Assembly (NCBI RefSeq): GCF_019801465.1 | Contig: NZ_JAHVJA010000010.1 | Location: forward strand, 62,001 to 126,000 | Source of the DNA: Leisingera daeponensis | GTDB lineage: Bacteria > Pseudomonadota > Alphaproteobacteria > Rhodobacterales > Rhodobacteraceae | Direction of reading: 5' to 3' | Length of the DNA: 64,000 bases | Shown: one piece after another, positions 51,340-52,658 of the stretch | Position numbering within the stretch: position 1 is the first letter of the stretch | Layout of the letters: every line of letters starts with the position of its first letter | Translations under genes and position numbers: made by a program | Notes under the pieces: model-generated | What the model was told of the DNA's origin: nothing | Databases searched by the model: none | The model's input: only the letters and a program-made list of their open reading frames with translations

Positions 51340-51975
51340 ATGACCCGCTCGCATATTCCCGGCATTCTTGCCATGGCCGCCGTGGTGGCGGCCTCCAACG
51401 TCCTTGTGCAATTCCTGTTCGGCGACTGGCTGACCTGGGGCGCCTTCACCTACCCTGTGGCCTTCCTGGTGACCGACGTGATGAACCGCGTCTACGGCGC
51501 CGCCGCCGCGCGCAAGGTGGTGGCGGCCGGGTTCATCACCGGGGTGATCTGCTCTCTGATCGGCACCCGGATCATGCTTGAAGGCGACGGCTTCACCTAC
51601 CCGGCGGTGACGCTGCGCATCGCGCTCGGCTCCGGCCTCGCCTTTCTGACGGCGCAGATGCTGGACGTCGCCGTCTTTTCTGCCTTGCGCGAAGGAAAGT
51701 GGTGGCGGGCGCCGCTGGCCTCCACCCTGATCGGCTCCTCGGTGGACACCGCGATCTTCTTCACCGTCGCCTTTTCCGTGTCGCTGGCCTGGATCGAACC
51801 GGCCAATGATGTGTCCTGGGCCGGCGACATGCTGCCGCTGATCGGACTGGGGCCGGTGGTGCCCTATTGGGTCTCGCTCGCGTTCGCCGATTGGCTGGTG
51901 AAATTGTCGCTGGCGCTGCTCGCGCTTGTGCCCTTCCGCATCATCGTGCGTTCGTTAACCAAAAAGGCCACATGA
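51340..51975 (+). CDS. Queuosine precursor transporter (YhhQ/VUT family)
   Basis: A 211-residue inner-membrane protein with about six helices that imports queuosine precursors such as preQ0/preQ1. The motif TYPVAFLVTDVMNRVYGAAAARKVV near residues 37-60 is the family signature, and SSVDTAIFFTVAFSV fits the later helix with a conserved Asp. A short basic C-terminus follows. There is no strong ribosome site before the ATG. The gene is followed after seven bases by a promoter-like TTGACA and the compact leader unit. Confidence 0.92.
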   Translation: MTRSHIPGILAMAAVVAASNVLVQFLFGDWLTWGAFTYPVAFLVTDVMNRVYGAAAARKVVAAGFITGVICSLIGTRIMLEGDGFTYPAVTLRIALGSGLAFLTAQMLDVAVFSALREGKWWRAPLASTLIGSSVDTAIFFTVAFSVSLAWIEPANDVSWAGDMLPLIGLGPVVPYWVSLAFADWLVKLSLALLALVPFRIIVRSLTKKAT

Positions 51976-51982
51976 TTTTGTT

Positions 51983-52011
51983 TTGACATTGGCCGAATCT
52001 GTGGCAGGCTG
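51983..52011 (+). promoter_or_regulatory. Possible promoter of the small transcription unit
   Basis: A perfect TTGACA at 51983-51988 is followed after 17 bases by AGGCTG, a weak -10. Alphaproteobacterial housekeeping promoters are often weak at -10. Transcription would start near 52018, just before the Shine-Dalgarno. Confidence 0.4.
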
Positions 52012-52032
52012 AACTTACACGAAACATCAGAA

Positions 52033-52160
52033 AGGAGGTGCCCATTGTCTAGAGAAGCTATGGAGAGCAGTGCCGGAACAGTTCAGAAGGAGTGCGGCCG
52101 AGGCAGCCCTTGGTACGTATAGATCACTGAATTGGTGCTGACCTAACCGGTGCACCTCCT
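52033..52160 (+). ncRNA. Structured leader or small RNA with self-complementary Shine-Dalgarno
   Basis: AGGAGGTGC at 52033-52041 is complementary over nine bases to GCACCTCCT at 52152-52160, with two more G-C pairs after a one-base bulge. The second element contains CACCTCCT, which is the anti-Shine-Dalgarno sequence of the 16S rRNA 3' end. Pairing would close the ribosome site of the small frame. A strong terminator follows at once. The unit is 230 bases with its own promoter-like and terminator elements, so it is probably an independent transcript. Confidence 0.55.
52045..52122 (+). CDS. Candidate 25-residue leader peptide or small protein
   Basis: A TTG-initiated frame of 25 codons with an ideal AAAGGAGGT ribosome site five bases upstream. 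It encodes a polar peptide starting MSREAMESS and ending GRGSPWYV, with one cysteine at position 17. An internal ATG (MESSAG) lies five codons in but lacks its own ribosome site. Codons such as AGA, ACA, GTT and GTA are unlike the GC-rich neighbours, so the RNA may be constrained for reasons other than protein. I know no family. Its presence as a real peptide is inferred only from the perfect ribosome site and isolated transcription unit. Confidence 0.45.
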   Translation: MSREAMESSAGTVQKECGRGSPWYV

Positions 52161-52167
52161 ATCATCT

Positions 52168-52208
52168 CGAAGGGCTGTTCCCCGCGTGTGGAACAGCCCT
52201 TTCGATTT
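52168..52208 (+). terminator. Strong terminator of the small transcription unit
   Basis: CGAAGGGCTGTTCC pairs with GGAACAGCCC-TTTCG (one extra T) around an eight-base loop and is followed by ATTTT. The stem is among the strongest in the window and would isolate the unit from arfB downstream. Confidence 0.85.
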
Positions 52209-52238
52209 TGGAAGACCCTGCCGCAAAACACCTAAGCC

Positions 52239-52658
52239 ATGATCCGCATAAACGACCAAATCGCCCTGCAGGACTGGGAAATGACCGAGAGCTTCATCCG
52301 CGCCTCGGGCCCCGGCGGGCAGAATGTGAACAAGGTGGCGACCGCGGTGGAGCTGCGGTTCGAGGCCGAGCGCTCGCCGGCGCTGGCGCCTGCGGTCAAA
52401 TCCCGGCTGAAACGGCTGGCCGGGCGGCGCTGGACCAAGGACGGCGCCATCATCCTGCAGTGCGACGAGACCCGCTCGCAGCAGCGGAACCGCGAAATCG
52501 TGCGCGAGCGGCTGGCGGAGCTGGTGCGCAAGGCGCTGGTGGCGCCCAAGCGGCGCATCGCCACCAAACCCACCCGCGGCTCGGTCAAGCGGCGGCTGGA
52601 GGCCAAGAAGCAGCGCGGCGAGCTGAAAGCGACGCGCGGTAAAATCGACCCGGATTGA
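52239..52658 (+). CDS. arfB: Alternative ribosome-rescue hydrolase ArfB
   Basis: A 139-residue peptidyl-tRNA hydrolase that frees ribosomes stalled on truncated mRNA without a stop codon. The GGQ motif (Gly26, Gly27, Gln28) sits in SGPGGQNVNKVATAVELRF, and the basic C-terminal tail (KRRIATKPTRGSVKRRLEAKKQRGELK), which reaches into the empty mRNA channel, is present. The length is normal for ArfB and too short for a full release factor. It lies immediately after the terminator of the small unit. Confidence 0.94.
   Translation: MIRINDQIALQDWEMTESFIRASGPGGQNVNKVATAVELRFEAERSPALAPAVKSRLKRLAGRRWTKDGAIILQCDETRSQQRNREIVRERLAELVRKALVAPKRRIATKPTRGSVKRRLEAKKQRGELKATRGKIDPD

Follow-up and report, generated by a model that had tools for sequence, protein, structure and literature searches.

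The closest described relative of the RNA examined here is the Caulobacter sRNA CC2171 (Rfam RF01867), reportedly one of 27 RNAs in the original Caulobacter paper. No described function for this sRNA was found in the literature searched, and its line in Rfam mentions neither a frame nor a function. Among the article sections available to our literature searches, none was found that describes a frame or an extended Shine-Dalgarno (SD) sequence in a CC2171-like RNA. The accessible portion of the Rfam 15 paper (PMC11701678) gives one further covarying pair for the family. For Mesorhizobium huakuii, the available excerpt of PMC5596092 annotates MH_s33 as CC2171 and lists for it further coordinates spanning 215 nt, which we take to be the RNA-seq product; it reports RNA-seq products for 34 of 35 non-riboswitch candidates.

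The rnTrpL/trp leader of Sinorhizobium is similar in combining a short translated frame with an attenuator terminator that gives a small RNA; as described in the part of PMC10117765 at hand, it differs by its leaderless start, its linkage to trpE and its functional peptide, whereas the present RNA has an extended SD, no class-wide downstream gene and a peptide that is not under selection. The alphaR8/SisA-D RNAs are alphaproteobacterial sRNAs with an anti-SD segment, for which the available text of PMC12559287 describes no SD-plus-frame module; the 10-mer core UUUCCUCCCU given there was absent from 51970-52238 on reading.

Architecture of the locus and its relation to CC2171

All features below are on the forward strand of the window, that is, the whole stretch of 64,000 nucleotides that was analyzed. 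The RNA was placed at 52017-52205, its 5' end estimated from the promoter and the Rfam CC2171 start and its 3' end set by the terminator. A -35 hexamer TTGACA (51983-51988), kept in congeners and many Rhodobacterales, is followed after a 16-bp spacer by a putative -10-like hexamer CAGGCT (52005-52010, by eye), which has CANNCT/CANNTT-like counterparts in many Rhodobacterales relatives; promoter-like -35/-10 pairs were also seen upstream of many Rhodobacterales-type sequences (both by eye). The extended SD AGAAAGGAGGTG (52029-52040) is a 12-nt complement of the organism's own 16S 3' tail. It precedes a small frame of 25 codons (52045-52122) with a TTG start, the ending GRGSPWYV and TAG at 52120-52122. 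The intrinsic terminator stem-loop (helix 6, 52168-52204) was identified by fold and covariation. Direct reading thus confirmed every piece listed in the preliminary description: TTGACA, SD, TTG, the 25 codons to GRGSPWYV and the terminator stem-loop. A generic scanner run on the window listed neither the 51983-52010 promoter nor any terminator there, owing to an interrupted T-run (TTTCGATTTT) and a weak -10. The upstream neighbor (51340-51975) is a Vut_1 family queuosine precursor transporter (Pfam PF02592), presumably of the YhhQ type (yhhQ below); the downstream neighbor (52239-52658, starting 34 nt past the terminator stem) is an RF-1 domain protein (Pfam PF00472), which we take to be an ArfB-like ribosome rescue factor (arfB below).

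A conserved terminator helix together with promoter-like sequence is consistent with a stand-alone transcript. In a survey of 144 loci, a strong hairpin was present 90-240 nt downstream in 142 (score at least 31, counted without a chance control). The compact unit proposed earlier, with its own promoter-like and terminator sequences, a small frame and conserved stems, held up on sequence comparison, and close relatives, searched for absence of both the frame and the stems, were found to keep them. A motif that recurs in the promoter spacer (51983-52010 and its Rhodobacterales counterparts), TTGACAnACACAAAATCTGTGnCA, has CACA/TGTG arms and may be an operator. In its TTGACAN7AATCTGTGGCA form, at up to 2 mismatches, the motif occurred in the organism's own genome only at the present locus; with this single site, a regulon sharing the spacer motif was rejected.

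In an Rfam scan of the window no family scored above its cut-off and no 6S RNA homology was found. RF01867 matched at 31.6 bits (E = 9.7e-5) over the whole model, under its cut-off of 75; four other weak hits (mir-4900, PyrR206, sR22, bxd_5) were taken as chance. By sequence, then, the RNA is distantly related to CC2171, with the Rfam cut-off placing it outside the family, and the earlier statement that no family was recognized gives way to this assignment. Shared features are the 5' module GAAAGGAGGTG, the start codon, the TGTC at the 5' end of the window RNA, a similar length and a terminator, and the two can be aligned end to end. They differ in closure, which in CC2171 is made by a CAUUGUC:GACAAUG helix lying 3' of the start codon and in the Rhodobacterales form by SD:anti-SD pairing; in the RF01867 alignment the window has mismatched pairs at the CAUUGUC:GACAAUG helix.

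RF01867 matched 43 of 101 relatives, one of them over the cut-off. Of 385 class genomes, 84 gave a match, which passed the cut-off in 13, and 301 gave none; among 14 control genomes the 1 match was in Caulobacter vibrioides. The cut-off was passed by 6 of the 17 loci scanned, from Bosea, Methylobacterium, Rhizobium, Brevundimonas, Microvirga and Falsiroseomonas. The 5'-module pattern was found in 74 of the 385 class genomes, with 0 for the reversed control among the rows listed. In the named collection it matched at least 120 stretches, which were, among those listed, from alphaproteobacteria or from MAGs labeled only Proteobacteria/Pseudomonadota, bar one. This sole exception is an Acidobacteriaceae MAG (L202), in which a 104-codon frame, VirB3-like by eye, begins at the match. 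With the window's own DNA as query, matches were obtained in 21 of 21 genomes of the genus and 4 of the 16 other family genomes searched.

A covariance model (R1) was built on 51 Rhodobacterales-type sequences (alignment A4), the window included. On the window, which is thus among its training sequences, R1 placed G000:C10:114022-114205, that is 52022-52205, at 132.6 bits (E = 9.8e-35). It matched 182 of 198 family genomes, each from another genus, 173 of them with E < 1e-8 (by eye); the weak ones may be terminator-only. When 8 genomes were re-searched without strict filters, the extra R1 matches were weaker and mostly short and terminator-like, and one full-length match (E = 1.4e-9) was recovered in a previously missed genome (G033); the RNA is single-copy in the re-searched family genomes. 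Outside Rhodobacterales a second RF01867 or pattern match occurs in some genomes, one of which (G048) was matched twice by the 5' pattern and twice by RF01867, and the RNA may be duplicated in some lineages. Across 20 congeners the RNA has a median identity of 95.3%; the values for arfB are 80.6% at third codon positions and 97.5% at first and second positions. The comparisons point to a CC2171-like RNA that has relatives across many families of Alphaproteobacteria and is represented at this locus by its Rhodobacterales form.

Initiation site and small frame

The organism's own 16S tail reads ...GGCTGGATCACCTCCTTTCTAA (antisense strand). The SD of the RNA matches 12 nt of this tail, in the window as in its genus, compared with a maximum of 6 nt at the 44 long-ORF starts in the window. 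The 4.89-Mb genome has 4 copies of this 12-mer: in the RNA, in the 16S gene, at an SD-like site and at an intra-ORF site (the last two by eye). In other lineages 15-16 nt of the 16S tail are matched in 78 of 84 clusters, although the patterns that selected them contained 11 of these. Among sequences fetched by similarity or RF01867, AAAGGAGGTG was invariant in 22 of Rhodobacterales type and 11 others. Pairing of the common form with 16S was predicted at -32.4 kcal/mol, vs. -8.7 for GGAGG alone. In the part of PMC4117421 that was available, an SD is reported for only 24.6% of Caulobacter CDSs, which makes a retained extended SD the more striking.

The patterns that fetched loci L062-L211 required 11 nt of the SD together with a TGTC at the start; for L092-L211 the start codon had in addition to begin with A or G. 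SD length, start-codon shares and the serine second codon are therefore not free observations; frame openness and length in the pattern-fetched loci are. Frame counts were made on 198 loci, grouped into 98 clusters below 75% identity because a few genomes still appear twice among the loci (L026 and L113, for example). Sequence duplicates (L077, L185) and second loci of genomes already used (L002, L024, L027-L031, L042, L057, L059) were dropped from the frame count, L202 was dropped from the frame, substitution and mimic counts, and L136, L161, L152 and L202 from the grouped structures.

A stop within codons 2-14 was found in 0 of 98 clusters in frame, vs. 40 and 38 in frames +1 and +2 (by locus, 0 of 198 vs. 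67 and 85). Dinucleotide shuffles of codons 3-14 gave an expectation of 26.4 clusters with a stop, the lowest of 300 being 13. The 27 loci fetched with RF01867, for which no frame was demanded, gave the same picture (early stops 0, vs. 11 and 8 in the other frames). Of the clusters open over these early codons, 95 of 98 reached a stop by codon 35; the other frames did so in 32 of 58 and 27 of 60. At the 75 places fetched with a pattern that put no demand on the start codon's first base, that base was A, G or T and never C (by eye).

The frame usually has 14-35 codons among relatives. In Rhodobacterales it usually has exactly 18 codons, and its stop (TGA, TAG or TAA) directly precedes GGCAGCCC or a variant. 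In the window's genus there is no stop at this point; codon 19 (52099-52101) is CGA, and the frame continues to 25 codons. The 18-codon Rhodobacterales frames are rich in AGA, ATA, TTG, AGA and ACA at codons 3, 5, 6, 8 and 12. AGA, ATA, TTG and ACA codons are rare in GC-rich genomes; in these frames they may slow ribosomes, or may merely follow from pairing. In the Azospirillum-type loci L068, L131, L155 and L164 the frame has 56-59 codons (MSHGA..ALLTAG..) and looks like a secreted-protein precursor, unlike other lineages.

The pN/pS of the frame was 0.66, 0.95, 0.88 and 0.89 in four identity bands, with differences spread evenly across codon positions, and in the window's genus 9 disjoint pairs showed 11 nonsynonymous and 0 synonymous differences. 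Since the frame is free of stops at these pN/pS values, translation appears to be selected and the peptide does not. That the frame encodes a small functional protein is accordingly very improbable and a functional peptide was rejected on pN/pS: the frame is always open and 96 of 98 clusters encode serine at codon 2 (the search patterns demanded the first two bases of this codon), yet amino-acid selection is lacking, the differences within the window's genus are nonsynonymous only, and peptides of different lineages look unrelated. The pattern of a frame selected to stay open while its product is not points to translation itself as the function, and suggests, by sequence, that the job of the RNA is being engaged by ribosomes.

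Anti-SD closure and a possible ribosome-gated switch

The window RNA was predicted to fold at -77.8 kcal/mol (z-score -4.55; 0 of 200 shuffles as stable), and in the best fold the SD is paired with GCACCTCCT at 52152-52160. In the consensus of the 51 Rhodobacterales-type sequences this is helix P1, formed by the SD and the C-rich internal anti-SD CACCTCCT (52153-52160) and paired in 94.6% of cells; its SD side shows no variation, which is what constraint by 16S would produce. P2, a hairpin at 52042-52063 that pairs the start-codon region (CCAU with AUGG in the window), was paired in 93.2% of cells. P3 joins GCCGG (52072-52076) to CCGGT (52147-52151) in the consensus structure and was paired in 91.7% of cells, with double changes at 5 of 5 pairs; in the single-sequence fold of the window this region is paired otherwise. 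The P4 hairpin/motif AGGCAGCCCTTG (52101-52112) lies just 3' of the 18-codon stop position and has few variable pairs; other lineages have what looks by eye like a related motif, G-CARCC. P5 is weak (71.6% of cells), and terminator helix 6 was paired in 95.3% of cells with double changes at 11 of 12 pairs. Over all named helices 91.7% of cells were paired vs. 39-56% with the 3' partners slid, and 20 pairs showed a double change vs. 7-11 when slid (0 of 500 shuffles equal); the slid control is biased in favor of these helices, which had been named from the consensus fold of the group itself and from one member. RNAalifold on the same alignment recovered P1, most of P2, P4 and the terminator, and did not find P3.

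In the window, SD accessibility was predicted at 0.25-0.59 in the nascent RNA and at 0.00-0.02 once 52166 is reached. Opening 52031-52059 was predicted to cost 15 kcal/mol and 16S pairing to give -21.2, so loading would be favored during transcription and balanced later. Closure takes other forms elsewhere. In Bradyrhizobium the SD is predicted to be closed by TCACCTC inside the frame (10 similar sequences with hardly any variation). In the CC2171-like group the frame's CUGGAUC has a possible partner in GAUCCAG, which follows the SD, a second helix joins CAUUGUC to a GACAAUG ahead of the terminator, and the SD is predicted to be half open in the full RNA (median 0.48); the switch part may therefore not be general. 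Strong SD closure was predicted in Rhodobacterales and Bradyrhizobium only. Exact copies of at least 7 nt of the 16S tail were found downstream of the start in 31 of 98 clusters (shuffle mean 8.9, maximum 17 in 100 shuffles), vs. 4 clusters for the reversed-tail control.

The C-rich anti-SD segment could instead make this an ordinary base-pairing sRNA that targets mRNAs through that segment, with the SD and frame hiding it or being secondary. Alphaproteobacterial sRNAs with an anti-SD signature are indeed described in the available part of PMC12559287 (alphaR8/SisA). In the other lineages examined, however, the 16S-tail mimic lies elsewhere or is another part (CUGGAUC, TCACCTC), and what the lineages have in common is the start signal and the open frame, so that we consider this account distinctly unlikely.

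The locus is a real, conserved RNA with a translation module and probably a regulatory role. We propose that it is a stand-alone mini-mRNA acting as a ribosome-gated switch, a reading on which we are evenly divided; the comparative signature is strong, and the mechanism is put forward as a hypothesis built on it. The open frame, start, stop and closing helix rest on comparison; loading, gating and any output are inferred. With the SD partly open during RNA synthesis, a 30S subunit could load, and translation of the disposable frame would keep the 5' half open. Were ribosomes scarce or slow, the anti-SD would shut the SD and the RNA would fall silent, so that its open or closed state would read out ribosome availability. 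Most speculatively, the open state might signal via the freed C-rich anti-SD, or through altered RNA stability or termination; in Rhodobacterales a candidate output would be read-through into arfB. Should ribosome engagement indeed gate the RNA, it would directly sense or buffer free 30S subunits in a class in which an SD may be absent from many mRNAs. The part of Schrader et al. 2014 that was available (PMC4117421) reports Caulobacter ncRNA regions as collectively untranslated by ribosome profiling and does not name CC2171; this collective call counts against the switch reading. If it holds for CC2171, translation would have to be conditional, or engagement without elongation would be what counts.

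Alternatively, the RNA could be a decoy, a sink for 30S subunits that offers a perfect initiation site on a throw-away frame, with structure setting the uptake. The invariant AAAGGAGGTG, the predicted strength of 16S pairing of the common form and an open frame with a free peptide all agree with this; the predicted self-closing in Rhodobacterales and Bradyrhizobium weighs against a constant sink, and RNA amounts comparable to free 30S would be required, which leaves the decoy unlikely. The possible logic is that of 6S RNA. 6S RNA imitates a promoter, and synthesis of a short product frees it; the analogy would be an initiation-site mimic released by a short product, with the difference that the present RNA would act on ribosomes and 6S acts on RNA polymerase. 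The broadest formulation is accordingly held with low confidence: an alphaproteobacterial RNA class whose conserved function is ribosome engagement, which carries a perfect initiation site on a disposable frame, closes itself in at least some orders and senses or titrates free 30S as a translational counterpart of 6S RNA, in Rhodobacterales perhaps also coupled to arfB.

Gene neighborhood and possible read-through into arfB

The yhhQ/arfB neighborhood and antiterminator pairing were analyzed in 194 of the 198 loci, four being too close to a contig end. The 71 Rhodobacterales-type loci, 21 of them from the window's genus, have the order yhhQ - RNA - arfB, with yhhQ in 69 and arfB within 1.5 kb in 60. 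In 56 of these 60 a gap of 13-131 nt separates the terminator from arfB, little space for a promoter of its own. Outside Rhodobacterales the neighbors differ and there is no common gene downstream. By crude ORF-based calls, with the 18-codon loci left out, the next gene was convergent in 64 (56 + 8) and co-directional in 41 (38 + 3). A conserved co-directional downstream gene, as a leader or attenuator would have, was thus not found across the class and was largely found within Rhodobacterales, and a cis-leader for the whole class was rejected on these orientations, crude as the gene calls are. Among the options raised in the preliminary description, the small protein fails on pN/pS and a plain leader peptide fails for the class on neighbor orientation; a regulatory RNA, with translation built in, is the best supported.

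Within Rhodobacterales the RNA may still read through into arfB. The corresponding alternative, that it is an arfB leader/attenuator in which terminator read-through transcribes arfB and translation of the small frame sets the amount, draws on the position of arfB and on a possible antiterminator: in the window CAGCCCTT after codon 19 (52101-52112) can pair over 8 nt with the 5' arm of the terminator, and in 18 clusters the longest run between the post-codon-18 segment and this arm averaged 5.06 vs. 3.96 in shuffles (highest of 200 shuffle means, 4.56). The antiterminator test is weakly positive, its signal being carried by few sequences (L187, L001, L041). The RNA is also kept at the 9 of 69 yhhQ loci that lack arfB there (two are the same genome) and at 4 loci with 0.5-1 kb between RNA and arfB, and the absence of a common gene outside Rhodobacterales weighs further against this alternative, which we judge somewhat unlikely.

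The translation theme noted earlier for the flanking genes (queuosine, ArfB) was seen in Rhodobacterales-type loci and, bar one Hyphomonadaceae MAG, not elsewhere, and is therefore not general. In that MAG (L116) arfB lies upstream of the RNA and is divergent. By eye, neighbors in Bosea and one Methylobacterium (L099, L101, L115, L153, L188, L200) are RNase R-like, and those in Microvirga (L138, L152, L160, L170, L196) are release factor 3-like, a theme of translation or RNA decay again, perhaps by coincidence.
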